DNA of 64,000 bases from Allacma fusca (taxonomy: Eukaryota; Arthropoda; Collembola; Symphypleona; Sminthuridae), in assembly GCA_947179485.1 (NCBI GenBank), contig OX359245.1, forward strand, positions 65,521,067 through 65,585,066, in the 5' to 3' direction. The notes below the pieces were generated by a model. It saw only the letters and a program-made list of their open reading frames with translations. It did not search any database and was not told where the DNA came from. The number at the start of each line of letters is the position of its first letter. Positions within the stretch are counted from its first letter, which is position 1. This document shows positions 4,026 through 59,981 of the stretch, piece by piece. A program made the position numbers and the translations under genes.

Positions 4026-5307
4026 TTAAAGGCTATATAGTCTTCGAAGGCTGGACACGTTACCTCTCACATGTATTTTTTGATGGATATTTAAATGGGA
4101 TCTGTGCTTGGAACATAGATGTAGGTTTTTTTCCCACTCGCACTCACACTCGCACTTCCATAAAGAAAAATCCACCACTCCTACTCGTGCCCACTCATAG
4201 TCTGTCTGAGAATGTAAAACTCCTACTCCTACTCTCAGCGCTAACTTCAAATCTCACCACTCCTACTCACCACTCGTGTCGTGAGTTACTCAATGTTTTC
4301 ATCGAAATATTTGCAAATATTAAGACAAGTTTTCCTTATCATTAAAAAAGCGAATATTAAGCAAAAAATGCATGACTTGTACATACATAAGTCGGCATTC
4401 CATACAATTGTTTGTATGATATTATGAAATATTTGGCAATAACCGCCAATCTTTTAATCGTGGCAACGTTAGCTTTATGCGGTTAATACAATGGTACGAG
4501 AAATAGCGAGTAGCAAAGCATGCTACTCCTACTCCTACTCTTTTTCTATGCTACGATTTATACCACTCCAACTCACGACTTTTTTGACGCCTTCACTCCT
4601 ACTCTTTACCTTGCTACTCCCCTGTGAGTGTGAGTAGGAGTGTGTTGAGTGCACTCGTCACTCGCGAGTAGCCTCCATCTATGGCTTGGAAGAGTAATTG
4701 CATTGTTAACATTTGAACAGTCCTTCTCGGAAGTGTGTTCTCTCGTGGGCTATTAAATTCGTCCTTTGAACACCATCAAAAGGACAGTGTAGACACTTCC
4801 TGCACCCTGTATGGACTCGTTCGTGCATTTTCAAACTAAATTGATGAGCTGATTTGAAAGAGCAGTATCGACACTTAAATGGCCTTTCTCCCGTGTGGAC
4901 TCGTTCGTGGCGTTTCAAATTACTTTTATACGCTGATTTGAAAGGGCATTGTCGATAGTTCAACGGCTTGTCTCCAGTATGAACCCTTTTGTGTAATTCC
5001 AGAAGATATTTCTCAACGGCAGCGAATGGGCAGAGTTGGCACTTATGTATGAGACCTCTCCTTTGTATGCCATCGTTCGTGCCTTTTCAAACTAGGCTTT
5101 GGAGCTGTTTTGAAAGAGCAATGCCGACAATTAAATGGTTTCTCGCCAGTATGAACTCCTTCGTGGATTTTCAAACTATGGTTATATCTAAAAGCGTAGG
5201 AGCAATGTTGACATTTGTGAGGTTTCTCTTCTGCCCGGATTCAGTTTTAAATTATTCCATTCTGCTGAAGCCTCTGAGGGCTGTTGAGTTTTGTATTGTT
5301 TCCCCAT
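4026..5307 (-). pseudogene. C2H2 zinc-finger pseudogene interrupted by a hAT-like element
   Basis: The start codon would be at 5307 (MGKQ context: ttgtttccccatcg). Finger coding is present but in more than one frame: about 4706-4963 holds three good fingers with HTGERPF linkers, while 4980-5300 is a different frame. A 570-bp hAT-like element sits at 4114-4683 inside the last canonical finger and is flanked by gcttggaa. Beyond it only the end of that finger and a few degraded residues remain (4026-4113); the tail and terminal finger are missing. Frameshifts, insertion and 3' loss make this non-functional. Confidence 0.85.
4114..4683. mobile_element. hAT-like MITE, family CATAGATG, CACTCCTACT-type repeats
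   Basis: 570 bp. The ends CATAGATGTAGG and CCTCCATCTATG are inverted repeats with one mismatch. The exact 8-bp duplication gcttggaa lies at 4106-4113 and 4684-4691; paralogous genes show the uninterrupted site. The ends are rich in degenerate CACTC/CTACTC motifs, inverted relative to each other on the right side. No transposase ORF. A right-end fragment of the same family is at about 51860-52086. Confidence 0.9.
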
Positions 5308-7593
5308 CGTGTAGCTAGGTAAGTTAATTTGATTGGATAACTGTAAGTAAAGTGACTTTAAATTTCGAAATACTAATTAATGACAAAGCTTTTTGATTGA
5401 ATCAATTTGTTCAGATTTTTAAAAAAATGAAAGCAGATGCTCCAAAGTTTGACTTATTCTGGATACGGGATAGGCATTCTAAAACAAAGCACTGGAGCAA
5501 ATTCAAAGCGTTTATAAAACATTTTCAGAGTCATATAGCGAGGGATGTAATAATTGTGATACGAAAAATCGCTTTAAAATGACACAGTCGGAACTGAAAT
5601 AAGCATTTTTATCTATTTCAGCAATAAGCCATAGCTTCAAGGCTTACGGCAAAAATACAATTATTTTATATATTTACGAACACTGAAACTTGATCCTACC
5701 TCGGCTGTTTTAGTACACAAAACCATCATTTCAGCACTGGTAGTAGTTAAGCCGAACAACAAATAAGAACAACAAGGGATGTACTAGCACAACTGCTGAC
5801 TATATTTCCATTAAATACATGTAAGTCTGTAATAATTGTGTAAATGGCGAAACATTCAGTGGAATCATGTCTAAGTATGAAGAGCAACTTAACACCTATA
5901 ACACAATCTGCTCTCCAGCAAAAATATTGAAGTGGGGGAGAGTCGATGAGGTGTTCCGTCTAAATTGTAAATATGGAATATTTAATTTTATCAGTTTTCG
6001 AAAATATATTGGAACAGTCAGCCCGGACGGCAGTACTATGGGAGTTACAGCTAAAACAACCACTGCACGAGACACTCCTTTGGAGATCTGACATTTGTGA
6101 TCAGAACGAAGGAAAGGCAAGGAGCTGTCGTGGGTTCGTAAGGACTGTCTGTGAGTATAAGCAGTAGTTAAAAACCTTCAAGGTTGTAGTAATTGTGATA
6201 ACAAAAATCCCATCCGAATAACGCATTCATTGTGTATTTACGACCTCCGAAACTTGATCCCACCTTGACTTTTTTAACATAAAACTATCATTTCAGCACT
6301 GGTAATTGTTAAACCGAAGAATCAGGAAAAACAAGACGAGAGTGTACACAGCCCTAATTTTCCAATATTTTCCAGCGATATTTCCAATATCGCTGCTCCA
6401 TGCATTTAATGCAAATGTAATTATTATTATGGAAATATGAACAATCTTGAAACAGTAATATCATTACATGCACGAATCTATTTCACAATATTTTTAAATC
6501 GAATTACAAAGTTAGCACAAATACAACGATTATAGAAAAAACCATTGTCCTTGCACAATTGGTAGAATTCATGCACTCGTTGTACACATGATGAGCATAA
6601 ATATCGTAGTGTTACAACATACTGTAAATTATTGTAACTCAATAAGATAATTATGTTCCAAATGGGTCATGGGCGAAAGCCTAAAAGACCTTAAATAAAT
6701 AAATACAAAAAAAAATACAACATACTGTAAATCATAACATTCAATATATGTAATTATGTAGATACAGAGATTCATTATGTAATAGCACAACTGATAGTCA
6801 ATTATTACATCTATTCAAATCATATTACCCTCAAAATGCTCTACCCCTGACAATTAGTTCGCTGAAACTGTACCTCAATCATAATTCCGAACTAATATTC
6901 GAATATCAGATACTCCTCCACAAAGAATCTTCTCCAAAAAACGGAGCGAACGAAAAGAATGTAATTTATATTCCGTACGTGTCTAGTAAAATGAAATGAT
7001 GAAAATCACACTCACTGAAATGCACTTTTGTATTTCATCGAAAATACAATCTCACAGGTTATAAAATATAAATGCATGGATTTATCAACGGCTAAAGAAA
7101 TCATAAATTGATTTGGGCGGGCGTATTTTGAGAGTAATAATCTATGAAAGATATCAACTAGGGATCAAAAATGGGAGAGAAATGAAACTTAAAATGTGCA
7201 AGCTCCGTAACTATGCTTTGTTTCCGTTGTTTTAAGTTTCCATCATTTGATGATGCGCTGATTCCGTTCCAAGTAACGCATGAACATTTTATTTAAATAA
7301 CTAACTTCATTTGTTTTGCATGCAATAAAATTTGGAGGCCATTTGATAAATGTGGTTTTTTAACTCATGTTCTTTCAAGCTTGGCATCCTATAAAATGTC
7401 AGTTTATTTCACGTTCAATCTATTTAACCGTTGTAAAATGTCATAGTAAATATTTGCAGCAGCTGGACATGTATATAATTACATGCATGAACAACAAACT
7501 AAACAAGTTTTGGTAAATGCTTTCAAAAAGATTCGTGGCAATTACTTTGATTGAACACCAGATCGAGGAGTAACAAAACGAGATTCCATGGAG
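5308..7593. other. Spacer between pseudogene and next gene, partly doubled
   Basis: No gene. The leader block is at 5308-5400. The spacer blocks occur at 5690-6170, and the first of them is repeated at 6180-6355, so this spacer carries a local duplication. From about 7140 to 7593 it is the type II 3' flank (tttgatgatgcgctgattcc, ggaggccatttgataaatg, attactttgattg) also found at 21840-22842, 35215-35470 and 63105-63685. Confidence 0.6.
6653..6716 (+). mobile_element. Possible 3' tail of a non-LTR retroposon
   Basis: The stretch with 'gggcgaaagcctaaaag' then 'accttaaataaataaata' resembles the 3' ends of arthropod LINE/SINE copies that finish in a short A-rich repeat. It interrupts a spacer that otherwise repeats 'caacatactgtaaat' on both sides (6614 and 6719), which could be a target duplication. 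Family not determined. Confidence 0.45.
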
Positions 7594-16030: not shown

Positions 16031-17138
16031 CGTCTAGGTTGGTTACCGTTTTTTGAGTGAGTAACTGTAATAAATAAATAGAATTGCTTTAAATTTTCAA
16101 ATACTGATTACCGACAAAGCTATTTGCTTGCATGAATTTGAAATGCTTAAACGCCGTTGACATTTTTTAAAATGAAACAAGCAAACTCAAAGTTTAATTA
16201 ACTTAATTTAGTTACATGGTAAGTATTGCAAAAAAAAAGCACAAGAGTAAGCTAGAAGCATTTAAAAAAAATTACTCATACCGTGAGGGATGTAATAAAT
16301 ATGATAACAAAAATCACTTCAAAATGAAACTTTCGGAACTGAACTAAGGATTTTTATTTCAGCGATAATCCAGTTGCACGGCTTACGCCAAAAGCAAAAA
16401 TCTTTTAAATATTTACGGCCACCGAAACTTGATCCCACCTTGACTGTTTCAATATTAAACCATCACTTAAGCACTGGTAGTAGTTAAGCCGAACAATCAG
16501 GAAGAATAAGAAGTTAGTGTACACATCTTTAATTACGTTTCCATAAAGCACCTGTAAGACTGTAATAATTACGTAAATGGCGAAACATTCAGTGGAATCA
16601 TGTCTACGTATCAAGATCAACTTAACACCTACAACCAAACATGGGCGCCTGCCAGTGGTCGAACTTTGATTCATCAATACCATACTCTAGTGTTGTGGTT
16701 CTACTGGAATTAATTGTAATCATGAACTAAAAATCTATTGATCTTAAAAGCAATAGAAACGAAAGCCAATAAAGCTCATGGGATATTATATTAATAATGA
16801 AATTAATGCGAAGTAGAAGTTTGTTTTATAGTATTGCATTGTTTGTATAAATTAAGATAATTTTAGTTCAAGATTAAAACTAATACTAAATGAATCAGAA
16901 TAATAATTCGTACGAATCTGAAAGTTCACATAACCTAATATGCAGAAAGGAGAAAAATTTAAAATACTTGTAATTTACTGTTGAGAACATAAATATTAAA
17001 AATGTTTTAAATAATAATTGTGTACACATATGCTAATTTCCGTTTTAATTATTTCAGTAAATACTTAAGTTTTGAAGAAACAAAAAGGGAAATAATAAAA
17101 AAAGTGCAACAAATAATTATCGTTGGGGAATCTTGAGA
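16031..17138. other. 5' flank paralogous to 32659-34690
   Basis: No gene. 16031-16660 matches the 5' flank of the gene at 31558-32658, and 16705-17138 matches about 34347-34780. Between them this copy lacks about 1 kb found at 33284-34330 and instead shows 'CAGTGGTCGAACTTTGATTC' at 16663, the left end of the hAT family seen complete at 50593-51225; no matching right end is present here. Confidence 0.6.
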
Positions 17139-17738: not shown

Positions 17739-18624
17739 TAGGGAATGTCGATTGAAAATGCCCTTGCATATATGCCTGCCAAGCTGAATATGCCCAAAAT
17801 GCCTGCCAACGTGCCATGTATTTTTGGACATAGTGGCACTTCAGGAAAACGCCCTGAATTTGGGCATATTCGACATTTTAGTCATTTTCAGCCAGGAATA
17901 TTCTGCATTTCTGGTAGATAAAACTCAGTAATACAATCGAGCCAAAAATGCCACTATTCACTATTAAAATGAAATCCTATTAAAGGCGTACACGGCAATT
18001 TTGTTTAAATGTATTATATTTCAAAAGATACTCGCTGTATACCATACAGACACTTTATATTGAATTATTGATGAATGCAATGTTGTTGTATTTTGTATAA
18101 AGTTAATCAGAAGACTCGAGTGATAAATACGTCATTAACAAATCCTCCCCATAAGAACTTTGATTTGTATAACTTTCATCCTCATGTATTCTTTTATGCT
18201 CCACCTCCAGCGTAAATAAAATTTCTCAAATTTTCTTCCAGGTTGGCATAGTTTATTGCATTCCAAAATGTGAGTTTTGTCCAGTAGTAAGAATGGTTAG
18301 ACGTTTTAAAAACTACAACTCCTACAATTGTCTACTGTCCAGATTTATTTACCTGTGTGCTAAAACCGTCGAGTAATCGTTTTTAGTGAGCGGGGTAGTG
18401 TGCAGTAGTAGCAGTGACCAATAGCGCCTGGAAAAGGTAATCGACCCGAAAATTTGAACTGAATATGCCCAAAATGCCGAATATGCCCAGGAATGAAAAT
18501 GCCCGTGCCGAATATGCCCAAAATCTACGTATTTGCCCAAAGTTGAAAATGACCAAAATGCCATGGCATTTTGGGCAGGCATTATGCCCAATATGCCACG
18601 GCATTTTGAAATCGAAAATCCCTA
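17739..18624. mobile_element. hAT-like MITE, TIR TAGGGAATGTCGATT, ATGCCC repeats
   Basis: 886 bp. The left end TAGGGAATGTCGATT pairs with the right end AATCGAAAATCCCTA with two mismatches. Exact 8-bp duplication gtaacaat at 17731-17738 and 18625-18632; paralogous spacers have the empty site 'tctgtaataattacg'. Both ends are packed with AAATGCCC/ATATGCCC and the complement GGCATATT. No transposase ORF. Confidence 0.9.
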
Positions 18625-19400: not shown

Positions 19401-21003
19401 TAAGGTTCTCAACGGATCGGATATATCCGAACGGATACGGATCGGATACGGATACGGATAGGATAAAATTGTAGATTATCCGATCCGATATTTATCCAAA
19501 CGGATCGGTTGTCATTCACATTCAAAAAAAAATCCCGGATAGGATCGGATACTACTACATAAAATATCCGAACTGATCGGATGGAGACTTTTTGTTTTAC
19601 GGATAGTCCGACGTATAACCGCGGATAAACGAATTTTTGAAATCAAGACTACCACTCAAACCTCAAACAATTGTTATCTGCTGCAATCATCGACAGGACA
19701 TTAGTTCGGCATTTTCTCAAAACGTTTATACTTTTTTCAGTTTATGTAGCCTTTGTAGCAAACAGAACCTCACGAATATAAACATGCCGTCAAGTATTTA
19801 TGTTTTGACCAGAAATTCTGTCATATTTTGCATTTCAGCTGTTCATTCTAGTTACCTGTTCTTATAGGCTTCAAATTGTTAAAGCTCTTCAGTAAGTTAA
19901 TTTTTGAGAATACCTGATGATGTGCGAAACAAAAGAACTCAATTTTTAAATTATTTATAATAAATGTTTTGCCAAACAAACATTATGTGCACGGTTTCTT
20001 CTGTCATTACAATAAGTTAAAAGTTAATAGTGTATTGTATTTAAAACTAAAAGCCAAACTATAGGATCGGTTTCAACTTCTACAATTGATTCGTGTATCC
20101 ACAGATAGGATCGGATAGCTCCTTTTTCGTATCCGACGCATACCTCGGCAAAAATTTTGAACTCGAACTCGCACTCAGTCAAACGTGTGCAAGGTCTCTA
20201 AGCCTCGAACTCACTGAGGCACTGAACTCTAAGTAATTCTTTGCCTCGAACTCGAACTCGGAGGCTCGTTTATTACCCTTTGGAACTCAGCCTCGAACTC
20301 ACGTAAGCCTCAATTTCCAGTTTCGTGAATCAAGTATACTGCCATTTAAATACATCAATTCAATTAAAAGCATTTTTTTCCACGTAATTTTTTAATTTCA
20401 ACTCTTCGAAATAATAGTAAGAATGGGAGTAAAATATTATACTTTATGTATCTACAAAAATCAAACATTAGTGCTTTCAGTTTTTTTCATTTTGTTTTAA
20501 GCGCTTAAACCATTATTTTGCACACGCTTCATTGACCGAATTCGATAAGAATCAATTCGCAGGTATATGCACAGCAATCGTTATTCCACAATATAAATAT
20601 TTAAGCATAGATGGAATTAGGAGGTTGGTGTTGGTGAGGTCCACATTTCGAACTCGCACTCATTCATTTGAGTTCTGCCATAAACGATTGGCTCTCAGCC
20701 TCAAGTCGCGGCGGCTTTTAAAACAGCTCCGAACTCGCACTCAAAACCAGGTTTTATGGAACTCGAATGTGAGCTGAGTTCGAGTTCGGAACTCAGAACT
20801 CATGAGTTCGCCGAGGTATGATCCGACGGCTTCGGATAGGATAAATACGTCATCCAAAAATTTACGGATAAGCTTCGGATAAGTTTATTTTTAATTCGAT
20901 GGACGCGGATAGGATCGGATACGCTTCAATTTTATCGGTCAAAATTCGGATCGGATAGGATACGGATAGGATAAGGGAATTATCCTACCCGTTGAGAACC
21001 TTA
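19401..21003. mobile_element. hAT-like element, family TAAGGTTCTCAACGG, GGATA repeats
   Basis: 1603 bp including a nested 682-bp element. Inverted ends TAAGGTTCTCAACGG and its near-exact complement at 20989-21003. Flanks gttccttt (19393-19400) and gttctttt (21004-21011) match at 7 of 8. Arrays of GGATCGGATACGGATA motifs start directly inside the TIR and run on the same strand at both ends. A close relative in opposite orientation is at 59090-59981, a variant at 53333-54288. Middle (19620-20100) is AT-rich without a convincing ORF. Confidence 0.9.
20139..20820. mobile_element. Nested hAT-like MITE, family CATACCTCGGC, GAACTC repeats
   Basis: 682 bp inside the preceding element. Ends CATACCTCGGC and GCCGAGGTATG are perfect inverted repeats. 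Exact duplication atccgacg at 20131-20138 and 20821-20828. CTCGAACTCGAACTC-like motifs fill both ends. A 5'-truncated second copy is at about 50470-51711. It inserted after its host element. Confidence 0.92.
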
Positions 21004-22842: not shown

Positions 22843-24519
22843 TTATTGCTGTACTTTGCAAACCGTTCTTTCAATATTCAGACTGACTACAGGTAATTTA
22901 TGACAAAATGAGTAGTGCATGCAGAGCTCTTTCTCCGAAAATAAAGCGTAATTGCACTCCTTACAAATAAACATTTCAAAGCTTGCTTGACTTGAGGATT
23001 CATTAATTTCTTGGTCATCCAACGGGTCGAGTTGAGTATCCTGACAATAAGATTCTTCCTCACTTTCAAGTAAATCTTGCAAGTGAGTTGGTTCTCTATT
23101 GCCTTGTTTCCTTGACGAACTAAAATCAGTAGTTTTCACATATTTCTCTGATGGCACTGTCGTTGTTTCAGGAGGGAGCTTACACTTGAGTGACTTTCTT
23201 CCAGACAGCAGTCGTTTTTGAGGGGTCAAGGAGCTCCGTAGCTTCTCAGGGTGTTCAAATTTCCTTTGGTCTCCTCGGATATGAATTTTTTGATGGATTT
23301 TTATATGGAACCTGTGCGTGGAAGAGTCATTGCAATGTGTACATTTGAGCGGTCCTTCTGCGGAGTGTTTTCTCTCGTGGGTAATAAATGCGATCTTTGA
23401 GTAGCAACATTAGGACAGTGTTGACACTTAAAAGGCTTATCCCCTGTATGGGTTCGTTGATGGACTTTCAAACCAAAGCTGGGCAAAAAAATTGCCTATC
23501 CTAAATCATACATACATTTTATAGTTTTCAAAGAGCATACATTTTGCATACATAAATTTTTCCAGAAATTTAATCATACATATATGCATATAAATAAATT
23601 TATGCATAAATATATGTACACGTTCCTATAAAAGTGTATGTTGAACGTTATGAACCTTTATAAAACTGAATACAATTTATGATGGTTAAGTGTAAAAATA
23701 TTAATTTCTAGTGTCGTAGGTTTCAGTCAAAACGTCTAGAAATCGTTTGCATTGCAGGAGGAAATAACAAATGCGAATACACCAATAGACACAGACCATG
23801 ACAAGAAAATACAGATGGAGTTCGCTGAGCATACACAATGCATACATACCTAAATCTCCCGGCCTTTTATACATGCATACATACTCGTACATACGGTATT
23901 CACAGCATACATATATCATACATGTTTTTAGTAGAAACTTGCAGCCCACATATATTGCATACAAATATTCGGAAAATGTGAGAACATACATAAAAAACTG
24001 CATATATTTATGCATCAATATAGGATATGCGCCCACCTTTGTTTCAAACTAGATTGATGAGCTAATTTGAAAGAGCAGTATTGACACTTAAGAGGCTTCT
24101 CCCCCATATGGGCTCTTTCGTGGCCTTTAAAATTACCTGTATACGATGTTTTGAAAGAGCAGTATCGACACTTAAACGGCCTTTCTCCAGTATGCAATCT
24201 TTCGTGAATTTTCAAACGAGATTTTTGAACGGCAGAGAAAGGGCAGAGTGGGCACTTATGAGGCCTTTCACCTGCCATTTTTCGTATCCTTTCAAACTAT
24301 ATTTATAAGCTGATTTAAAAGAACAATGCCGACAATTAAATGGTTTCTCGCCATTATGAGCTATTCCATGGATTTTCAAACGATAGTTATTTCTCCCTGA
24401 GAAGGAGCAATGTTGGCATTTGGGGGTTCCTCTGCTGTACGGATTCGGTCGGGTCTTTTAAAATTATTGCGTTCTGCTTTAGCGTCTCTGGACTGTTGAG
24501 TTTTGTATTGCTTCTCCAT
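22843..24519 (-). pseudogene. C2H2 zinc-finger pseudogene interrupted by a hAT-like element
   Basis: The start would be at 24519 (MEKQYKTQQSRDAKAERNN), but the frame is lost in the first finger near 24415. Fingers continue in pieces at 24015-24278 and 23301-23486, the hAT insertion lies at 23474-24041, and the tail with an intact terminal finger is at 22843-23229 (PSEKYVKTTDF..., ending CKVQQ). N-terminal and 3' flank features group it with the gene at 7594-8700. Several frameshifts exclude a normal product. Confidence 0.88.
23474..24041. mobile_element. hAT-like MITE, TIR CAAAGSTGGGC, ATACATA repeats
   Basis: 568 bp. Ends CAAAGCTGGGC and GCCCACCTTTG are inverted repeats with one mismatch. 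Exact 8-bp duplication tttcaaac at 23466-23473 and 24042-24049, within finger coding sequence (tttcaaactag is the normal paralogous string). The interior is full of CATACATA/TATATGCATA motifs. Two short ORFs inside are by-products of this repeat. Confidence 0.9.
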
Positions 24520-28027: not shown

Positions 28028-29007
28028 TAGAGCTTCCAATGTGTTCAACATTTTTGTTCCGTACGAAATTCCGTTCCGTTCCGAAACCTACAAATAATAA
28101 TGTTCCCGGTTCCGTTCCGGCTGTCGGGATATCGGAACATTTGAACGGACACCGTTCGGAACAAAGTAGTAAAGCATTTTTTCCGTTTCAGGTTGTGTTC
28201 CGTTCCGTATTATGCTAGTTTTTCCGTTCCGAACCCGTTCCGTTCCGAAATATCCCGGAATTTTTTACAACATATGAAATGCGTGTACAAATTACTGGCA
28301 ACTTAATATATGTACATGATATACTTTTAATATAATTATTGGATGCTAGGGAATGTTATTATTTAATTATATAAAATAATATTTAATAATAATTAGGCCA
28401 TATAAAAAGAACTACTTTGCAGTATTATATAATTATTATTAATTTTTTTTAGCAATAAATATTTTTAGCGTGTGGACTTCAATGGCCTAACAGTGTTAAT
28501 TTCCTGCAAGCTTGCTTCATTGCTGCTAATAATTTCGATTTCAGAATTTTCATTTCGAGAAAAATCGTCCATGCCCATTTTTATTAAACAAAATTAGTTA
28601 TTCTGTTGATTTTCATGGAAAACGATACTCGCATTACATATAAGCATTTGCGTAAATTAAATCTGTGTTCATTCAATTTCGTTATTTTGGCAAAAAACTG
28701 CTTACAAGCCAGAGCGATAAGAAATGTGTTTCCATTCTAGTTGAACGATGGCGCGACACTTCAGAAATTATACCGGGATCGGTTCGGAACGGAACAGAAC
28801 AATTCCGCTTTCCGATGACATAAATTATATGGGACATTTTTCGTACCGATGCTCCGAACCGTCCCGGTCCCAATATTATCGGTACAAGTGCTCATGTTCC
28901 GGTTTTGTCCCGATTCAATGATGGAACCAAAAAGAATGTTCCGAAATTGTTCCGTTCCGTTTCCGAACACGGAACTTCGGGATTTCGGAAACCCGAAGGA
29001 AGCTCTA
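28028..29007. mobile_element. hAT-like MITE, TIR TAGAGCTTCC, GTTCCG repeats
   Basis: 980 bp. Ends TAGAGCTTCC and GGAAGCTCTA are perfect inverted repeats; exact duplication ggtagaat at 28020-28027 and 29008-29015, and paralogous spacers show the empty site 'ttggtagaattgaacc'. Degenerate TTCCGTTCCG motifs fill both ends on the same strand. Middle AT-rich, no convincing ORF. Confidence 0.93.
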
Positions 29008-29514: not shown

Positions 29515-30268
29515 CAGAGCTGTCCAAAATACATGGTATTTTAAATGCATGTATTTCAAATACGTATTTCAAATACATTTTTGTATTTTGTATTTTAGTG
29601 GCTAGATATGTATTTTGTAGTTTGTATTTTGTATTTTGTCTTATCAAGCAATGTATTTTGTATTTTGTAGTTTGTATTTTGTGTTACTTAAGTGAAGTAA
29701 GCATTGTATTTTGTAGTTTGTATTTTGTTCGCTATACAAGCTACTTGTATTTTTTGTTGGCGCACTTTCTTGGGGTTTGAAATTTCCGTTTATGCCAAAA
29801 ACCAATCACATCAATGAAGTAAAACGAAATTCAATCGTTTTAACATCCCATAAGGCTAAATTCAAGAGTCTACGTTTCAAGTATGTATTTAGTATTTTGT
29901 AGTTTGTATTTTCTACGTTTTGAGTATGTATTTAGTATTTTGTAGTTTGTATTTTCTACGTTTTGAGTATGTATTTAGTATTTTGTAGTTTGTATTTTCT
30001 ACGTTTTGAGTATGTATTTAGTATTTTGTAGTTTGTATTTTCTACGTTTTGAGTATGTATTTAGTATTTTGTAGTTTGTATTTTCTACGTTTTGAGTATG
30101 TATTTTGTATTTTGTAGTTTGTATTTTCGTCGCCTGAAGAATGTATTTTGTAGTTTGTATTTTCGACGCCTGAGGAATGTATTTTGTAGTTTGTATTTTC
30201 GACGCCTGAAGAATATATTTAGTATTTTGTAATTTGTATTTGGGGAGCATGTATTTTGGACAGCTCTG
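29515..30268. mobile_element. hAT-like MITE, TIR CAGAGCTGTCC, TGTATTTTG repeats
   Basis: 754 bp. CAGAGCTGTCCAAAATACAT at the left pairs exactly with the right end. Exact duplication ctgttcag at 29507-29514 and 30269-30276; the flanking array sequence has the empty site 'ctaatattcag'. The interior is TATTTTGTAGTTTGTATTTTG of varying spacing. A related left end without partner is at 48904. Confidence 0.93.
29869..30110. repeat. 43-bp tandem repeat inside the element
   Basis: A 43-bp unit (ctacgttttgagtatgtatt followed by tagtattttgtagtttgtat and ttt) is repeated about five times nearly identically, then degenerates into shorter 'gacgcctgaagaatgtattt' units. The near identity shows recent slippage or unequal exchange within one element. 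Confidence 0.85.
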
Positions 30269-35823: not shown

Positions 35824-36175
35824 CAGTGCTCTCAGTTAGACACCCTTACTTACTCTTTACTCATAATTTTGTCTCTCATGATGTCCAGTACTTACTTTTT
35901 ACTTACTCAGGGGCTTCGTGGTGGCTATCTTACTTACTCACTACTCCCTCAAAATTTCGGGTCGCAGTGTAATACTTACTCTTTACTTACTTATTCGCAA
36001 AAATAAGCTGATATTACTTACTCTTTACTTACTTTTGCCTGCATAGTACTCAAGTAATACTTACTCATTTTCAAATATAATCCACGTCACTGCCATCTTT
36101 GGTAGTGTAGTCAACGACTCAAGTTTAACGAGTTGCATCGTCGCAAGTATTTAAAGGCATTGTTTGCCCATGGCC

Positions 36176-37164
36176 CAGTGCTGCCCGAGTCAAGTCAGAC
36201 TTGACTTGAAAACTTGTGACTTGACTAGACTAGCCGGTAAAAATGCCTTTGCAATAAAACTTGACTAGACTACATCATGCTTGTTTAATTACGCGACTTG
36301 ACTTGACTAGACTCTTTGGAGCGATGACAACTTGACGTTTGACTTGACTGGACTAGCCTTTTTCGTTGGCATTTTCTAATCAAGTATGGCTACCCCAAGC
36401 ACCCTGAGCGGTCGATAAAATTGCACAATTATGCAAATTATTACGTTTCCAGACCTTCATCTAGTTTCATCCATTACTGCGATTGGGGAAATACTATTAC
36501 GGCACATGTACACAATTATGGGACGACTTTTCAGGCTGTAAAAACTCCGAAATTACAACTGCTTATCGTTTTCACTTGTTCTGGTTGTAATTTTACATTT
36601 TGCACTTGTTTATTGTGATTAGCCACCGTATATTATAGTTTTTTGTTATACTAAATCAGAATGTCCTAAAACAAATTCACGAAAAGAAGAATTACCAGAA
36701 TCCAAAAATGAGGAATTAGTAAAAACTACTAGTACGTTAAAAGCAGATGTTAATAAGCTATCGTTGAAATCTAAACCGCAATATTCTTTTAGGATGAATA
36801 CAATCGTGCAGGCTAATGTTGATAATCATGTTTTTTCCTTAATTATGCGGCATACGAATGAGTAGGATTAGAAATGGAGTAATAAAACTATGTATTCACT
36901 TTTTCATGCTTGCGTAGAAGGTTAGAATAAATATTTCAATCATTACAAGATGTTACTTGGTGGGAATATTTGCTTTAACAGTAAGACTGGAAGACTAGAC
37001 TAGACTAGGACTTGACTCCACTTCTTTACATTATTTTGAGACTATGACTTGACTTGACTAGTTGGATGGAAAATCAGGGTGACTTGACTTGACTGGACTC
37101 TGCCTAATGCATACTATGGTTGACTAGACTAGACTTGACTTCGAGCGGCTGGCGGGCAGCACTG
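36176..37164. mobile_element. Nested hAT-like element, TIR CAGTGCTGCCCG, TTGACTTGACTAG repeats
   Basis: 989 bp. Ends CAGTGCTGCCCG and CGGGCAGCACTG (with a one-base spacer difference just inside); exact duplication ccatggcc at 36168-36175 and 37165-37172. Directional TTGACTTGACTAGAC motifs at both ends. The central AT-rich part holds a 67-codon open stretch (see 36662-36865). A degraded fragment of this family is at 46815-46990. Confidence 0.93.
36662..36865 (+). pseudogene. Possible internal ORF remnant of the hAT-like element
   Basis: A Lys/Glu/Ser-rich 67-codon reading frame (starts CPKTNSRKEELPES, ends HTNE stop) with third-position variety unlike the surrounding repeats. The frame is open back to 36623 without a start codon. 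It could be a leftover of an element-encoded protein. I do not recognise a domain. Confidence 0.25.
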
Positions 37165-37491
37165 CCATGGCCTGTGTTATCTGCCTCCATAAGCCATATA
37201 GATATAAGTCATGGATATGGTCGGAGAACATTTTTTCTATGGTAGTTACTCCAGTAAAGAAGAGTTTACTTACTCAATACTTACTTTTTGATACTTTGCA
37301 GTTCGTCTTACTTACTCATTACTTACATTACACTGGGGAATGAGTGTTCGTACTTACTCTTTACTTACTTAAACATCAACCTTTTTAAAATTACTTACTC
37401 ATTACTTACTCATACTCGCAGATGTGAGTACGAGTAAGTACAATACTCACTTTATGAAAAATTCGAGTAATGAGTAAAATTGAGAGCACTG

Positions 37492-44573: not shown

Positions 44574-44840
44574 CAGTGCTCGGACTGGGTACAGAAACCG
44601 TGTACCCGTACCCATACCCGTACCCGAATATCGGGTACTACAAAATGCTGTACCTATACCCGTACCCATACCCGAGTACCCGGGTAAATTATTTCAGTAC
44701 CCGTACCCGTACCTGAAAATACAACGTAGTACCTGTACCCACAATTTACCCGTACCCGTAATGTACCCAAAACCTGTACCCGTACCCGAGTATCTATTGT
44801 GTGTACCCGGGTATCACTCGGGTACTGGAAGTTTGGCCGA
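44574..44840. repeat. TACCCGTACCC repeats behind a CAGTGCTCGGACTGGG end
   Basis: The array sequence stops at 44573 and CAGTGCTCGGACTGGGTAC begins, followed by about 250 bp of TACCCGTACCC and the complement. This has the layout of the left part of the hAT-like elements in this window. A right TIR with a matching 8-bp duplication was not found; CGAACACTG at about 45186-45194 is an inverted match of only the outer bases and lacks the duplication. Confidence 0.55.
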
Positions 44841-48903: not shown

Positions 48904-50469
48904 CAGAGCTATGCAGTATTTTCAAATACAGTATTTTAAAATACGTATTTGCAGACCACAAAGTATTTTGTATTTTGTATTTTCAAGTTAGCAAGGAGTG
49001 GGCAAGTATTTTGTACTTACAAGTAAACATTTTTTGGTGCCCCCTCCAGATTTTCGAAATTCCACCAAAACTAGTTTGCTCATACCCTGAGTACTCCTTT
49101 AAGGTATATCTGCCACCTGAAAAATCGTTTGCAGTTTTTTTAAAAATATTGGCGCGAAGTGAATTTGGCCCGAAATTCTAAACTTAAAATTTTAAACGGC
49201 ATTTAACATGGAGAACTGCAAGTTTCACATACCCCTACCTTCCATTTTAAGCTGGTAATGAATATTGAAATAAATTATTTTGAACTAATTTTATCAAATA
49301 CCATGTTGGAACATATTTGTTTGCAATGTTTGTCACATCTGTGCTACTTCGTGCACAGTTTCACTTGACATATAATTGCCTCCGCTGAATCACGATATGT
49401 GAAATTGCTGCTAGCAATTGACGAATATGGCAAAAGTAAAATTTGCCTTCAGTATAAAAATGTGCCACTGTTGGAACCACATTACCAGAATTTTAAAAAT
49501 GTTGAAATATCAAAACATTGTAATTTATTTTCTAAACATGACACAAGAAAATTCAAAATTTTGAAATTTGCCATTTGCCTTGTATTTTTAGTAAAATTCG
49601 CGATCTCACATGTAGCAAAGAGTTTTCAGTACTGCTGGAGTACTTTTAGAAATGATTAAAAACAAATACGAAATTTCTTGATTTATTATTTTTTCAATCC
49701 ATGTCAATGATAAATTACCATGTTAAAGTCCATTTACTATTTTTTTAATTTCCGAATTTTTTCAACCGGATTCCGCAAACTTGATTCCAACGATGGCACC
49801 TCTACGTTAAAGCACATACGTTTTAGTACTCTGACCAATTTGTACTTTTACCGTATTCATCAAACTCGAACAGCAATCCGACATATTGTGGTTGATTTCG
49901 TTCCATTTACCCACGTGTTTAAGAAAGTTGTGAAGTGAGGCTGTGCGAAATGGTGTAGAGCTGGAGCAAAAATATTTTGCAAAAAAGTATCTTTCAACCT
50001 TGTATGGAAAATCTTAGCGAACTCGCGAACCGAGGATTCACGGATTTCTTCGTTTCTAAAAAAATATTCCTCATTTTGACAATTCGAAACATTTTTGATA
50101 CCCAGGAAGTAACGAAACTAGGAAAAATTTGCCAATCCTTGAAAATTTTGATTCCCTAGTTGCAAAACTGAAAAGAAAATTGCCAAATAAATTAGATGTC
50201 AAATCGTGCTGACTTTAGTTCGTTGCCACTTTGGAAGGTTTTCTATACCTGGAACATGGCATTTGAAATATATGCTTCACAATGGCATCCGAATATTTTT
50301 TAGATCGTAAATGTGACGAAGTTGAAGTTAGTGAACTGATTTAAAGGGTTTGTAGGTTTCGAAACCCGAATTTTTGGCATGGGAAATGATTCTTATATTG
50401 AAATACATTCCCATGGAATTTGTTACAAATAAGACGTTTTGAACAAAATTATGAACAGCGAATCTGCCA
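48904..50469. other. Non-array DNA starting with a hAT-like left end
   Basis: CAGAGCTATGCAGTATTTTC begins at 48904 followed by about 120 bp of AAATAC/TATTTTG motifs, similar to the element at 29515-30268. No right end was found. The rest to 50469 is non-array AT-rich DNA with unassigned short plus-strand ORFs (for example 49399-49659, 49720-49938), none with a recognisable motif. Confidence 0.4.
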
Positions 50470-51711
50470 TAACTCTATGTAATTCTTTGCCTCGAACTCG
50501 AACTCGGAGGCTCGTTTATTACCCTTTGGAACTCAGCCTCGAACTCACCTAAGCCTTAATTTCCAGTTTCGTGAAGCAAGTATACTGCCATTCAGTGGTC
50601 GGACTTTGATTCATCAATACAATACTCTAGTGCTATTTTTGTACAGTTGCCTTTACCTGTACTGTGCTTTACTGTAGTCTGGATATGATAATTGTTTCAA
50701 TACAATGCATTACTTTTAAAAGCACATCGAAATATGTTTCAATACTCTGCTTTACTGCACTAGTTATGCAAAAATAGTCATCAATACTTTGCTTTACTCT
50801 ACTAGTTATACATAAATAGTTATCAATACTGTGCTTTACCCATAGAAGTACGTATATAATCCTCAATATTGTATAATCACAAATATCGCCCGTTCATTCT
50901 GCTTTCGTTTGTCGTTTTAATGTCGTATGCTAAATTTCTAACGTAAGTAGTTCCTCCGTAAATTTACTAGATGGGGTCCTTTGCGTGTATCAATAATTTG
51001 CTGTACTTTATATGAATTTGTATTATTTATAACAATTCGTTGCTTTGCTTTACTTGTTTTTATTGCTATAGCGGCTTTTCAATACTGTGTCAATAGTTCA
51101 TGTCATGAATAGATGTAGATACTGTACTCTTCTTTATTGACGAAACATAATGATGATGCGTTACTGTACCAATGCTGTACTTTTATCAATACTGTACTAA
51201 AAAGTACAGTACAGTCCGACCACTGCTGCCATTTAAATACATCAATTCAATTAAAAACTTTTTTTTACCACGTATTGTTTTTATTTCAACTCTTCGAAAT
51301 AATAATAAGAACCGAAGTAAAATATTATACTTTATGTATCTACAAAAATCAAACGAACATTAATGCTTTCAGTTTTTTTCATTTTATTTTAAACGCTTAA
51401 GCCGTTATTTTGCACACGCTTCATTGACCGAATTCGATAAAAAATCAATACGCAGGTATGCACAGCAATCGTTATTCCACAATATAAATATTTAAGCATA
51501 GATGGAATTAGGAGGTTGGTGTTGGTGAGGTCCACATTTCGAACTCGCACTCATTCATTTGAGTTCTGCCATAAATGATTGGCTCTCAGCCTCAAGTCGC
51601 GGCGGCTTTTAAAACAGTTCCGAACTCGCCCTGAAAACCAGATTTTATGGAACTCGAATGTGAGCTGAGTGCGAGTTCCGAACTCAGAACTCATGAGTTC
51701 GCCGAGGTATG
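50470..51711. mobile_element. hAT-like element of the CATACCTCGGC family, left end missing, interrupted
   Basis: From about 50470 (aactctatgtaattctttgc) to GCCGAGGTATG at 51711 it matches the element at 20139-20820 closely, including 'gcatagatggaattaggagg'. The left TIR and first about 90 bp are missing, so no target duplication can be tested. A 633-bp element of another family sits inside at 50593-51225. Confidence 0.85.
50593..51225. mobile_element. Nested hAT-like MITE, TIR CAGTGGTCGGACT, ATCAATACTGTGCTTTAC repeats
   Basis: 633 bp. Ends CAGTGGTCGGACT and AGTCCGACCACTG-like (agtccgaccactg) are inverted repeats; exact duplication ctgccatt at 50585-50592 and 51226-51233; the copy at 20340 shows the empty site 'actgccatttaaatac'. 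The interior has TACTGTACT and ATCAATACTTTGCTTTAC motifs. A left end of the same family is at 16663. Confidence 0.93.
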
Positions 51712-52086: not shown

Positions 52087-53332
52087 ATCCAGAGCAAATT
52101 AACACCTACAACACAAACTATACAGAAGAATTTTTGTTTTTTCACATTAAATTGGTTTCAGTGGAATCCATTTTATTATAAATAGCAAGCTTTCGAACAA
52201 CAACTGTGTTCATCTTCGGGCTATATACAACTAACTGCTAAATTACGAAATTTTTGAATATCTTTTACATCGTAATAATTTTTTGCAAAAAATTGAAACA
52301 TTAATTTATAATAATGTTTTACAATTTCGTTCTAACTTATTGTTAAAGAATTGTATTTAGTTTAGGAATAATTGGTTTCCAAGCATCACTTAGTATGTAA
52401 CCCTTATTGACGTTCATCAATGGCTGTTTGCTTTGCTGAATTAGTAACCCTTCTTTCACTTCTCTTAAAAATGGTTTAGGTTATACAGAAGAATGTTGAC
52501 TTCATGCGAGCAGAAGGAGAGTCCATGACACGCTCCGTGTAAGTTGTAAATGTGTTTGATTTTTTCAGTTTTTGAAATAATGTTTTAACTGTCAGCCCTG
52601 GCGACAGTACTGCGGGAGTTACAGTTGAAATAACCACTTCATGAGACACTCCTGGAATTCTGACAAGTGTGATCAGAACGAAGGAAAGCAAGGAGCTGTA
52701 TAGTGGGTTCGTAATAACTTTCTGTGAGTAAGCAATAGTTCAAAGACTTTCAACAAAGTTTTGTGCATTTCCGTGTACAAGGAATATAGAAAAAGGAAGG
52801 CCTTCAAGTAGCTATAAATAGTAAGTGAACCTGTGAAAGGGTTTGTTCAAATTCGTTTTATGCCCTTTAGCAGACTTAAAATAAACAAAAGTACCTGATG
52901 GTTTAGGTTCAGGTTCGGTAGTTACAGAACAGAGCATATCTGTATTAGGTACTTGTTAGTAGTGTTGAATGCACATATACAGATATTCTTAAATGGAATG
53001 ACAAATTTGCTGGCTAGAATGTCATTTAATAGTAAAACTATTGTCCTTGCACAATTGGTAGAATTCAAATACTCGCAGGACACACCATGAACATAAATAT
53101 CACAGTGGTGATGGTGAACCACATATCATAACATACATATAATATATGTAGATACAGGTAGATGCATGCTGTAAAAGCACTACTGAGAGTCAATTACATC
53201 AATATAAGTCAGATCACCAATCACCATCACGTACGTTCCAATGGCCATTGATAGTCCAAAGATACGTATAGCCATAATTTAATTCAGTGTTTCCTATAAT
53301 GTGCAATCAATTCTATCGGTACTAAGGTTCCT
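52087..53332. other. Array spacer with a foreign stretch
   Basis: No gene. 52130-52480 interrupts the array sequence (acaaactatacagaagaat occurs on both sides) and contains 'tttcgaacaacaactgtgttcatcttc', which read in reverse resembles the 3' ends of some retroelements; not assigned. The spacer then continues with 'agacactcctgg' (about 52640) and TATAAATAG (52813-52821). Confidence 0.5.
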
Positions 53333-54288
53333 CACGGATAGGATAAATGACTTATCCTATCCGTATCCTATCCTATCCGGAAATTCTCGGATAAATTAAA
53401 ATCTAATCATATCCTATCCGCTAATTTCGGATATAAATTTCTTATCCGAATCCTATCCGAAAATTTCGGATCGGATATAATTTGTATCCGTATCCGACGG
53501 ATAATTGCGACACCATATCCGATCCTATCCGCAGATATCCGAAGTCATCTGCGGATTTACAGTTCTAATTCTGAAATGACTCTTGCACACTAAAATTAAA
53601 AAAAACATATTTTTTCAAATATATGGAGAGTCAATACAGGATTACATAGAACACTTAGCTACCACTTACTTCACTAAAATATTCATTCTTCCCTTAGTAA
53701 CATGAAATGTACAATTATCATTAATAGGAGGAACACCAACTGCGAATCGTAATTCTTATTCTAATTCAGATTATTTCCGGGGCCGCTGAATTGTTGGTCG
53801 ACATTTTGAAACTCAAGTTTGGGTTTGATAATATTGTATGACAGTTAATTTCCTTAAATGGGCTTTACTGGAAATGATTTAGATGGGTAACTTTAAGTAG
53901 CAATACATTGCACTTTTTTGTACTTGTTTAAATAGACCTTGTTTAAATAGACAAACGTGTTTTCATCGTTTTCTCCTCATTAACTTCATTATAATGGTAA
54001 GTTTACAATCAAAATATTTTAGGCCGGTAAGCAAAAGTGGGCAGATGGAACTATCCGCGGATAACCGCAGTTATCCGACGGCTTATCCGAAACTGAATAT
54101 TCTGTTATCGTATCCGTGCGGATAATTTTGTATATGTATCCTATCCTATCCACATTACTTGAACGGATAGAATGTGCCTATCCGATCCGAGCGGATAAAT
54201 GCGGGTAGGATAAAATCATTAATTATCCTATCCGAAATTTATCCTATCCGCGGATATGCGGATATATCCTATCCGTTGAGGAACCTTA
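53333..54288. mobile_element. hAT-like MITE, variant TIR TAAGGTTCCTCACGG, TATCC/GGATA repeats
   Basis: 956 bp. Ends TAAGGTTCCTCACGG and CCGTTGAGGAACCTTA are inverted repeats with one indel-like difference. Exact duplication atcggtac at 53325-53332 and 54289-54296; the empty site 'atcggtacacatactgac' is at about 9935. Same family type as 19401-21003 and 59090-59981, but with TTCCTC for TTCTCA. Confidence 0.93.
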
Positions 54289-54301
54289 ATCGGTACACAT
54301 A

Positions 54302-54648: not shown

Positions 54649-54654
54649 TACACA

Positions 54655-56037: not shown

Positions 56038-56546
56038 CAGGATAGACCAGTCTTAGACTGATGCTGAAGGACTGACTGCAACATTGAGTGACTGACTGAA
56101 GACTGACTGAGACTGCGACTGATAAATCCAACTACAGCTGAAGACTTTGACTGACTTAGACTTATTTCTGGTTCAGCGGGACTGACTGAGACTGAGACGA
56201 ACGCTTAAACCAATGTAGGAATCAAGAAAATCATAAAGCGTACGTACCGTATCTAGCGGGGCAAAAATCTACATTGAAAATATTGGAGATTTTCGTAGTA
56301 TTTTACAAAAGCAGATTCCATGTCATTAATTGTATTAAAATGCACAAGAAAATTACAAAAAATAGGTATTTTTGAAACTTTCACGCTGCCCTCTGAGACT
56401 GTGACTTATTCCAGTGACTCTGATAATGACTGTGACTGACTGAGACTCATGGGAAACGACAAACAGACTTATGGACTGACTGACTGATCAGGAACTTAAG
56501 ACTGATTTTGACTTGGACTGAAAAAGGTAGGGACTGGTGGATCCTG
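56038..56546. mobile_element. hAT-like MITE, TIR CAGGATAGACCAGTC, GACTGACTGA repeats
   Basis: 509 bp. Ends CAGGATAGACCAGTC and GACTGGTGGATCCTG are inverted repeats with two mismatches; exact duplication gattcgaa at 56030-56037 and 56547-56554, in the conserved 3' flank string 'gatttcgaacacag'. GACTGACTGAGACTG motifs at both ends. Confidence 0.9.
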
Positions 56547-56554
56547 GATTCGAA

Positions 56555-56858
56555 CACAGCAAATTTTATTATAGGGGGCTTCGCATCCTAAATATGTAGT
56601 TTTTATTTCCTGAAAAATTCATGGTGATACCTATGTATAAAATGCTACCACATAAACATGCGACTGCAGATACAAAATTTGGTAGAATACGATATATACA
56701 TACACTTGCAAGACTCATCAGGATCACATATACAGCCGAATGTACATGCACACAAACATAGTATTCTGTAATAGCACTACTGAGACCGGTGTTCATCAAT
56801 TTAAATCAGATCAATATTACGGTTCAATGATATTCAAAGCCCACTTAATTCCATGGAG
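56555..56858. other. Type I 3' flank of the following pseudogene
   Basis: Contains AATAAA on the minus strand at 56607-56602 and the 'catcaatttaaatcagatc' and 'ccatggagttattg' strings. Confidence 0.6.
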
Positions 56859-57762
56859 TTATTGCTCTATACAGCAATTCGTTCTTTCAATATTCAGTCT
56901 GACTACAGGTAATTTGTGGCAAACTGTGTAGTGCATGCATAGCTCTTTCTCCGACAATAAAGCGTAATTGCACTCCTTACAAATAAACATTTCAAAGCGT
57001 GCTTCACTGGAGGATTCATTCATTTCGTGGTCATCGAGTGGAGTTGAGTAACCTGACTAAAAGATTCTTCCTTTCACTTTCAAATAAATCTTGCAAATGA
57101 TATAGTACTCTATTATGTGGTTTCCTTGATGAACCCAAATCAGTAATTTTCGCATATTTCTCTGATGGCGCAGTCGTTGTTTCAGTAGGGATCTTACACT
57201 TGAGAGACTTTCTTCCAGACTGTAATCGTTTTCGAGGTGTCAAGGAGCTCGGTAGCTTTACAGAGTGTTCGAGTTTGCTCAGGTTTCCTCGTATATGGAT
57301 TTTTTGATGGATTTTTAAACGGGAACTTTGCGCTGAAGCATAATTGCGACTTTGACAATTGAAAGATCTCTCTCCGGAGTGTTTTCTTTCGTGGGTTACT
57401 ACAATCGATCTTTGAGTGGCAACATAAGGGCAGTATTGACACTTAAATGGCTTGTCCCCAGTATGGACTCGTTCATGGCGTTTCAAATTACCTTCATAAG
57501 CTGATTTGAAAGAGCAGTATCGACACTTAAACGGCTTTTCTCTAGTATGTACCCTTCTATGAATTTCCAAATGAGATTTGCGAGCGGCAGCAAAAGGGCA
57601 GAGTGGACACTTATGAGGCCTTTCACCTCCATGCCATTGTTCGTGTCTTTCCAAACTAGACTTATAAGCTGTTTTGAAAGGGCAGCGCCGACATTTAAAT
57701 GGTTTCTTGCTGGTATGGACATTTCCATGGACTTTTAAAAGATAGTTATATCTAGTAGCGAA

Positions 57763-58770
57763 CAGAGGTGTTCATCCTTCGAAGGATTTCCTTCAGAGAA
57801 GGCTTCTTTGAACGAAGGAAGCGTTATCTTTGGCAATTATGAAGGGAAGGGAAGGAAGGCTGGAAAGGAAACGAAGGCTGAACGAAGGCTTCTGCTCTTT
57901 GCACAAATAATTGAATGTGAAGGAACATGTTGTTTTTATGCCTTCGAACGCCGCTGGACCTTGCAATTCCATCTACTATATTTTTGGCAAAATTCTTCCG
58001 TAACTTAAGTTCATGTACGTACGTACACCGTTACTCAACTGAAAACTATTTTCCTGGCGGGTCTGCTTAACGTTATTCTGAAACATTTATTTCACAAAGG
58101 CAGCATGATACCCGAAGCATGTAAGTATTTTATTCCCTTCTTTGTACATAAATACATACTAATAATAATTAATATATAACAATAATTGCAATTAATTGCA
58201 AACTAATTATTAGTTGTTCAGTGGTAAGCAGTTTGAAGTTCACGCCCAAAACCGAATACAATGCCAGCAAAGAAAAGGAAGGCTACGATTGTTGTTAAAA
58301 AACAATTAGAAAACTATTTTGAGTTTGAAGAAAAAAACGAAGAATCAGGAACCGGGAAATTAAAGTGTAAGCAGGCGGGATGCAGAAAGCTATTGATTTA
58401 TGACCACGCTCAAGGCTGGAAAAATCACGAAAGACATTTGGGAAGTCAGCATGTTTTAGCGTAAAATATTTTCATGACAAGCCATCGGTTTCCTTTAAAT
58501 AAATGTAGTCTTAATAATTGCGAAAACACTACTTGTAAGTCAAAAAAATTGACAATGGTAAATATCCTTTGCATTGGTTTTGAATGAAGGAAGGATTATA
58601 GCATGGTTTTGAATGAAGGAAGGATTATAGCATGGTTTTGTATGAAGGAAGGGTGAAGGAAGGGTAAACATTCAGAAGGCTTCATTTTACGGAACGATGA
58701 AGGAAGGGGTAATTGTAAACGGTTCTCCTTCTGAAGGATGAACGAACGTGTTTTCAAATGGACACCTCTG
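57763..58770. mobile_element. hAT-like element, TIR CAGAGGTGTYCA, GAAGGAAGG repeats, with BED-like ORF
   Basis: 1008 bp. Ends CAGAGGTGTTCA and GGACACCTCTG are inverted repeats with one mismatch; exact duplication gtagcgaa at 57755-57762 and 58771-58778, inside finger 1 of the surrounding gene (other copies read ctagcgaatgagc uninterrupted). Degenerate CGAAGGA/GAAGGAAGG motifs at both ends. It carries the ORF at 58261-58464. Confidence 0.93.
58261..58464 (+). CDS. Short ORF with BED-like zinc finger inside the hAT-like element, 67 aa
   Basis: It starts MPAKKRKATIVVKKQLENYF, then acidic residues, and a C-x4-C (KCKQAGC) followed by NHERHLGSQH with His residues in BED-like spacing; aromatic Tyr and Trp lie between. 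hAT transposases usually start with a BED finger and basic residues, so this is probably the surviving N-terminal exon of the ancestral transposase. The rest of the enzyme (catalytic DDE and dimerisation regions) is not present in the element. Could also act as a DNA-binding remnant; no evidence of that here. Confidence 0.55.
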   Translation: MPAKKRKATIVVKKQLENYFEFEEKNEESGTGKLKCKQAGCRKLLIYDHAQGWKNHERHLGSQHVLA

Positions 58771-59089
58771 GTAGCGAATGAGCACTGTTGGCATTTGTGA
58801 CGTTTCTCTTCTGTACGGATTCGGTCGGGTCTTCTTAAAATATTTCGCTCTGTTGAGACGCCAGGGGACAGTTGAGTTTTGGATTGTTTCACCATCTTGT
58901 GGGTGATTTAGTCTATTTTGACTGGGTAGCTGTAATGATTAGAGTTACTTTAAAATCTGAAATACTGATTACCGACACAGCTATTTGTAATCCTTACTCT
59001 CTGTTGTCTCTTTTTTAATGAAAGTAGCTACTCCTAAATGTAAATAACTTAATATGGTTACGTGATAAGTATTCCAAAATAAGGTTCTC

Positions 59090-59981
59090 AACGGATAGGA
59101 TAATTCCCTTATCCTATCCGCATCCTATCCGATCCGAATTTTTACCGATAAAACTGAAGCGTATCCGATCCTATCCGCTTCCATCGGATAAAAAATTATC
59201 TTATCCGAAGCTTATCCGTAAATTTTAGGATGATGTATTTATCCTATCCGAAGCCGTCGGACACGAAAAAGGAGCTATCCGATCCTATCCGCGGATATCC
59301 GATCCTATCTGCGGATACACGAATTACTTGTAGAAGGTGAAATTGATCCTGGAGTTTTGCTTTTAGTTTTAAATACAATTTACTGTTTGCGTATAACGTG
59401 TTGTAATGACAGAAGAAACCGTGCATATATGTTTGCTTGGGAAAACATTTAATACAAATAATTTAAGAATTCAGAGTTTTCTGTTTCGCATATCAGATAT
59501 TCTCAAAAATTAATTTAATTACTGAAAACCTGTAACAATTTGGAGCCTATAAGAACAGGTAACTAGAATAAGCAGCTGAAATTCAAAATATGACTGAATT
59601 TCTGGGCATAATATAAATACTTGACGGCATATTTGTGAGGTTCGGTTTTCGGTTTTCTACACAAGCTCCAGGAAAAAAGTACAAACGTTTTGAGAAATTG
59701 CCGAACTAATCTCCTGTCGGTGATTGCAGAAAACAGTAATTATTAGAATGGTCTTCATGTTTTCAAAAATCGTTTATCCGTGGATATCCTCGGATATCCG
59801 TCGGATTATTCGTAAAACAAAAAGTCGCCATCCGATCCGGTCGGATATTTTGTGCAGTAGTATCCGATCCTATCCGGGATTTTTCTCGGATGGGAATGAC
59901 AAAACCGATCCGTTTGGATAAATATCGGATCGGATAATCTTTAGTTTTATCCTATCCGTATCCGATCCGTTGAGAACCTTA
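59090..59981. mobile_element. hAT-like MITE, family TAAGGTTCTCAACGG, reverse orientation
   Basis: 892 bp. TAAGGTTCTCAACGGATAGG at the left pairs with the right end. Exact duplication ttccaaaa at 59082-59089 and 59982-59989; paralogous leaders show the empty site 'agtattccaaaacaaagc'. It matches 19401-21003 read in reverse, minus the nested insert. TATCC motifs dominate the plus strand at both ends. Confidence 0.94.

Follow-up and report, generated by a model that had tools for sequence, protein, structure and literature searches.

What kind of element fills a single stretch of Allacma fusca DNA with dense short words, a different one for each family, and what keeps those words in place? The stretch (the window; 64,000 bp, C1:65521067-65585066 of a 392.7-Mb assembly in 91 contigs) was reported in a preliminary description to hold fourteen hAT-like elements, each with terminal inverted repeats (TIRs), 8-bp target site duplications (TSDs), and ends built from its own motif. 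Other loci and stretches of the same genome are labelled here with L-numbers. The listed elements are probably non-autonomous members of hAT families, with ends made up of arrays of putative sites for a BED-type finger, a plan shared with Hermes and Ac. Across the genome, the family word and the DNA-binding finger of the family's own transposase appear to change in step. Taken singly, the elements are ordinary hAT families.

Paired TIRs of 12-30 bp were found in 14/14 elements, with exact 8-bp TSDs at 13 of them and a 7/8 match at 19401, just as described, and the TIRs appear to resemble the hAT consensus. Twelve of the element starts were kept; those given as 53333 and 59090 were each 10 bp late and were moved to 53323 and 59080, where both elements have the TIR TAAGGTTC. 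Twelve families were counted among the fourteen elements, in line with the earlier "about a dozen", and thirteen when the GTACCC family given further below is added. The listed elements are the following, the strand of GGATA elements being that of L050, a coding element of that family.

4114..4683: hAT-like non-autonomous element; TIR CATAGATG(T/G)AGG, motif CTACTC, TSD GCTTGGAA; gap-free empty sites.
17739..18624: hAT-like element; TIR TAGGGA, motif AAAATGCC, TSD GTAACAAT; empty sites.
19401..21003, plus strand: hAT-like element of the GGATA family; TSD GTTCCTTT/GTTCTTTT; 1603 bp with its nested element.
20139..20820: hAT-like element nested in 19401; TIR CATACCTCGGC, motif GAACTC, TSD ATCCGACG.
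23474..24041: hAT-like element, inserted in a zinc-finger gene unit; TIR CAAAGCTGGGC, motif CATACA/TGCATAC, TSD TTTCAAAC; empty sites.
28028..29007: hAT-like element; TIR TAGAGCTTCC, motif GTTCCG, TSD GGTAGAAT.
29515..30268: hAT-like element; TIR CAGAGCTGTCCAAAATACATG, motif GTATTTT(G), TSD CTGTTCAG.
35824..37491: hAT-like element, host of the nested 36176; TIR CAGTGCTCTCA, motif CTTACTC, TSD CTGCAAAG.
36176..37164: hAT-like element nested in 35824; TIR CAGTGCTGCCCG, motif CTTGACT, TSD CCATGGCC.
50593..51225: hAT-like element; TIR CAGTGGTCGGAC, motif (A/T)TACT(GT), TSD CTGCCATT; empty site in 20139-20820.
53323..54288, minus strand: hAT-like element of the GGATA family; TSD ATCGGTAC.
56038..56546: hAT-like element; TIR CAGGAT, motif GACTGA, TSD GATTCGAA; empty sites.
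57763..58770, plus strand: hAT-like element, an internal-deletion relative of L041; TIR CAGAGGTGT(T/C)C, motif GAAGG, TSD GTAGCGAA.
59080..59981, minus strand: hAT-like element of the GGATA family; TSD TTCCAAAA; empty sites.

When the window was searched blindly for 12-nt inverted repeats (10 or more matches, span 120-4000 bp) bordered by exact 8-bp repeats, 18 pairs were returned, 13 of which were listed elements; each of five shuffles gave 0. The other five comprised two in a palindrome at 61.7-63.4 kb, one within 17739, and two that were chance-like. T at position 2 and A at position 7 of the TSD were each found in 10/14 elements, exactly as first counted, where A and T each make up about 0.32 of the window; the corresponding figures were 13/17 and 10/17 for the 29515 family (window copy counted) and 11/14 and 7/14 for sampled elements compiled by hand, with L041 added. 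The TSD letters appear to fit the nTnnnnAn target preference of hAT. Insertion was also assessed by joining the flanks of each element and aligning them to paralogous places in the window, which are supplied by duplicated zinc-finger units. Empty sites that were gap-free over the junction were obtained in this way for 10/14 elements, with one imperfect site each for 28028 and 29515, and no gap-free paralogous site was present in the window for 19401, 35824, 36176, or 53323. The insertion at 20139 is empty in a sibling of its host element, at 59080, and that at 50593 is empty in 20139-20820 at 28/29 bases. In the families where they were compared, the two TIRs of one element differ consistently.

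The claim that both ends are filled by a family-specific motif was borne out by two measures. The top 6-mer of every listed element exceeded at least 98.4% of 3000 random non-element windows, 17739 and 50593 being the weakest, and the family word (top exact 6-mer, both strands) occurs 9 to 42 times per element, mostly in the two ends. A hot-spot scan that ignored TIRs (400-bp windows, z>=9) marked 12/14 listed elements, leaving 17739 and 50593 unmarked, together with a 148-bp satellite, a C-run, and two hAT sequences missing from the earlier list, so the dense short words of the window lie mostly in hAT elements. One of these additions, the GTACCC array at 44575, also formed the top of the random-window distribution. 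The further pieces of these families are the following.

16653..16692: solo end of the 50593 family, 40 bp, 95% identical.
44575..44840: left end of a GTACCC-family hAT element; TIR CAGTGCTCGGAC and GTACCC array.
50466..51711: GAACTC-family element with one end truncated, sibling of 20139-20820 and carrier of 50593.

By eye, the family likeness of the GTACCC end continues beyond 44840, and no GTCCGAGCACTG occurs in the window.

The words lie in an array at each end with few in the middle, except in 29515, where the middle holds them too. By eye, the centres look AT-rich, as the preliminary description has it. Direction was counted with hand-chosen cores or with an automatic motif, as an EM motif finder drifted to palindromes in several families. 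The reported sharing of one direction by both ends held by majority in 14/14 elements with hand cores and in 13/14 with the automatic motif (17739 being opposite), and in 13/15 genome-sample elements with the automatic motif; 17739, the GGATA elements, and 28028 show this bias only weakly. In several families inverted copies of the word adjoin one TIR. Such short inverted blocks would suit fold-back or long-TIR elements of non-hAT type, whose repeats reflect an inverted structure only. This explanation is hardly credible given the 8-bp TSDs and the direct arrays at the two ends, which leave the ends mostly running in the same direction rather than formed by long inverted repeats, and it is contradicted in two families by coding elements that have the same ends and hAT domains.

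Conservation of the word was examined within families, as had been proposed, and word columns differed less than other array columns in the 29515, GGATA, and GAACTC copies. Among 17 oriented copies of the 29515 family compared with the window copy, identity was 0.990 in word columns, 0.915 in the rest of the array, and 0.955 in the centre. The two GAACTC copies agreed at 1.00 in word columns and 0.95 in others, and 59080 against 19401 gave 0.96 and 0.86. For 59080 against 53323 the values were 0.92 and 0.50, and a reverse-complement control gave 0.66 versus 0.50; the aligner favours words, so this difference is partly an aligner effect. The arrays might instead be passive, a few original sites having grown by replication slippage and unit conversion into functionless, microsatellite-like padding. 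Unit conversion could likewise keep a word uniform, the copy number of 43-bp and 29-bp units does vary among copies, and inner putative left-end sites of Hermes are dispensable in cells (PMC10368747). We nevertheless consider passive growth unlikely, because many arrays consist of degenerate words scattered among other sequence and not of perfect tandem copies, the same word stands at both ends, mostly in one direction and with few copies in the middle (29515 excepted), conservation is higher in motif columns than in the remaining array columns, and both coding elements (L041 and L050) carry arrays.

Families were then followed across the genome by their TIRs. In the 29515 family, both TIRs and an exact 8-bp TSD were present at 17/20 fetched loci (the window's included), as the preliminary description would have it, and the TSD sequences were all different save for one neighbouring pair. 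Exact TIR ends, controlled with the reversed pattern, numbered 287 for GGATA (control 0), 114 for GAACTC (control 4), 931 for GTACCC (control 0), and 404 for CTTACTC (control 3). The first 100 of the 287 GGATA ends formed 33 pairs, whose lengths had their mode at 934-939 bp; three long pairs measured 3.27-3.51 kb. Among the first 100 of the 114 GAACTC ends 36/36 pairs joined ...GGCAAA (A-type) with ...GGCGAA (G-type). CTTACTC pairs were mostly of mixed type, with at least one exception, and a GTACCC relative with both TIRs was found at L024:7671-9452 (TIRs 12/12, TSD 7/8). At L055:346-540 a CTTACTC copy contains CTTGACT-type sequence with a CACTGCTGCCCG start; by eye, this start lies near, but off, the position equivalent to the 36176 site in 35824.

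A genome sample of 20 stretches of 10 kb from five contigs was also scanned. Permissive scans gave 57 rows versus 26.8 per shift, and 39 rows versus 23, 24, and 28 in decoys; owing to this high background only the 12 exact-TSD elements with (C/T)A TIRs were counted, the decoys covering the whole scan rather than exact TSDs alone. Word enrichment lay above the 95th percentile of random 700-bp windows in 9/12 of these, and in 8/12 on the element's own word. Words absent from the window were CAATTC, CACTAC (the nested L032 element), GAGTGC, CGGTTC, and GATTCA, and near variants of window words were GAAGGC and ACTTGA. Two inverted copies of a CCGACA-rich 328-bp array lie about 5 kb apart at L030:3788-4115 and 9012-9339, with no (C/T)A hAT-type TIR at these arrays. 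The listed elements sit within a tandem cluster of C2H2 genes, and the words could on that ground be targets of host C2H2 zinc-finger proteins from the surrounding cluster, varying through a host-element race. This is very improbable, as the five tested families are spread over the genome and the words are placed where hAT transposases bind in known elements.

If the words are instead transposase sites, coding elements should share them, and the preliminary description had called for autonomous partners to be sought. For the GAAGG (L041) and GGATA (L050) families, long elements were found that encode hAT domains and carry the arrays of their family. The former was reached from an open frame in the window.

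58261..58464, plus strand: 67-aa open frame within 57763, a transposase first exon with a BED-like finger C-x4-C ... H-x3-H.

This frame had no Pfam family match and no match in a large protein database, a search that sees only proteins of similar length. It had 26 genome matches at E<=0.01, itself counted, three others being below 1e-17. The best, L041 on C8, is a 3791-bp element with TSD CTGGGAGG on both sides and transposase-like frames, their exons verified in part, between GAAGG arrays at both ends; it holds 44 GAAGG, 84% of them in the first 250 or last 450 bp, and its C-terminal part is Dimer_Tnp_hAT (PF05699; E=8.6e-17). Over 823 bp, 57763 matches the left 818 bp of L041 at 96%, and it matches the right 196 bp of L041 at 98%, which makes 57763 an internal-deletion form that kept exon 1. 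The finger-only frame that it retains could in principle act as a binding-only competitor. L050, one of the three long GGATA pairs, is 3319 bp long with TSD ATTTGGAT on both sides and the same GGATA arrays at both ends. Its 479-aa frame contains Dimer_Tnp_hAT (PF05699; E=4.4e-13), its finger, joined by eye from two exons, matches zf-BED (E=8.3e-11), and PF14372 remained under its cut-off. Among named proteins, those nearest to this transposase are annotated in two springtails, Folsomia candida (38%) and Allacma fusca (54%, covering 48% of the query). L050 and the short GGATA elements are homologous at their ends only, over about 230 bp on each side, and these stretches are the arrays. The hAT C-terminal dimerisation domain was thus found in coding elements of 2/12 listed families, and the proposed hAT identity is supported beyond TIR and TSD form by the domains in these two.

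Whether the finger differs in step with the motif was examined with eight further BED-like exon matches, read with about 1.1 kb upstream, of which 7/8 had a hAT TIR and a repeated word upstream. The words were GAAGG at L042, GAAGGC at L043, ATAGGC at L044, AAGGCA at L046 and L048, CCTACA at L047, and CCTATA at L049. L045 is a decayed relative of L042, with no TIR seen in its upstream DNA. L047 has the TIR of 23474, CAAAGCTGGGC, in front of its finger exon, and this exon alone forms the partner evidence for 23474. Eight finger/array pairs were compared, including L041 and L050 and leaving out L043 (broken frame) and L045. Finger identity was correlated with array 5-mer similarity (rho 0.82; n=8; 0/3000 permutations), also without L048 (rho 0.83; n=7; 10/3000) and without L048 and L050 (rho 0.64; n=6; 64/3000).

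In the account we favour, every family would have its own hAT transposase acting in trans, and a BED-type finger at the N-terminus of this enzyme would recognise a short family-specific word. The arrays would be the recognition ends of the coding element, and an internal deletion could drop the gene but would have to keep arrays and TIRs; with the gene deleted and these kept, the short elements would be little more than two arrays. Binding of the word by the finger is inferred, as is selection for mobilisation as the force that preserves the word. Position, conservation, and covariation suggest, at the level of sequence, that the arrays are functional binding sites, as the preliminary description supposed. 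A broader and tentative proposal, possible rather than probable, is that in many hAT lineages of one genome finger and word array diversified together into mutually separate recognition pairs, a natural finger/word code driven by escape from short parasitic copies.

Several observations weigh against this account. Relatives by descent share finger and array, so the covariation could stem from common descent alone and is only consistent with recognition. Enrichment upstream of L046, L048, and L049 is only modest, the top 6-mer reaching z values between 5.9 and 8.1 in 300 bp, a length for which these values carry no null. Some arrays plainly expand by units, of 43 bp in 29515 and 29 bp in 57763/L041. 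Three of the 20 fetched 29515-family loci had no TIR pair with a matching TSD, 3/12 exact-TSD sample elements fell under the array threshold, and a fourth (the outer L032 element) passed only via its nested element (z 9.0 alone). Coding elements were seen for 2/12 listed families, seven families not having been searched for partners. A 5315-bp GAACTC pair (L051, L052) and a 2960-bp CTTACTC pair (L055), each read in part, contained foreign inserts and no coding element, and a 4593-bp GTACCC pair (L053, L054) had no transposase in the ends read. The zf-BED match belongs to the GGATA family, while three fingers of GAAGG, ATAGGC, and AAGGC type and the window frame had no Pfam match; the GAAGG-type finger was recognised neither by Pfam zf-BED nor by any PDB chain, and its single-sequence fold was of low confidence (mean pLDDT 62.6) and too poor for a fold search. 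In Hermes, putative left-end sites beyond the first 50 bp are dispensable in cells, with about 70% activity when mutated (PMC10368747).

In Hermes of Musca domestica the two ends contain 31 putative BED sites AAG(T/C), 17 in one and 14 in the other; at each end the outer sites mostly point the same way, an inverted pair lies next to the left TIR, and scrambling the left-end stretch beyond 50 bp abolished or nearly abolished movement (PMC10368747). The elements described here resemble Hermes in the 8-bp TSD with its nTnnnnAn preference and in short subterminal repeats, which its BED finger binds (PMC10368747), as well as in its left/right asymmetry, with one-direction arrays, inverted copies beside one TIR, and differing TIRs. 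Hermes is one family with a 4-bp word, whereas here at least 12 families have longer words that fill more of short elements. In maize, the Ac transposase has AAACGG hexamers as its binding sites, repeated over roughly the outer 200 bp at either end of Ac/Ds, and Ds-del and Ds2 are likewise internal-deletion forms keeping the ends (PMC3260210); unlike in Ac/Ds, the word here is family-specific within one genome. The hAT transposase of Herves from Anopheles gambiae binds a short subterminal motif, with an asymmetry of binding between the ends, and the long arrays seen here have no counterpart in the part of that report available (PMC3143072). By description only, the arrays are also like the subterminal sequence of Tol2 from medaka, which is reported to be highly repetitive and essential for transposition there. 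Given short subterminal sites in Hermes, Ac, and Herves, the array plan is already known and is met here in dense form; "greatly amplified" and "most unusual", as the preliminary description put it, were overstated beside the 31 putative sites of Hermes and the sites of Ac and Herves, and it is the number of families and the density of words that are notable.

To our knowledge, DNA recognition by BED fingers has been structurally described for few proteins, Hermes being one. A search of titles and abstract beginnings in the open-licence literature returned no report of many finger-matched array families in one genome. If the proposal holds, finger-word pairs could be read in number from one genome as a natural set for hAT self-recognition, and would reveal how non-autonomous elements remain coupled to their source or come to be shed by it.

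The C2H2 cluster around the elements occupies 524-48561 on the minus strand and comprises about nine tandem zinc-finger open frames, most with an MGKQ-like start and a common C-terminal tail; one of its frames showed at most 45% identity among the 120 matches listed of 6835 in the database. The 148-bp satellite lies at 60521-61093 (3.9 copies, 95% match). The palindrome at 61675-63435 is large and interrupted: arms of 152 bp, at 92%, are separated by about 1.5 kb, and there are inner arms as well. It is possibly another kind of element.

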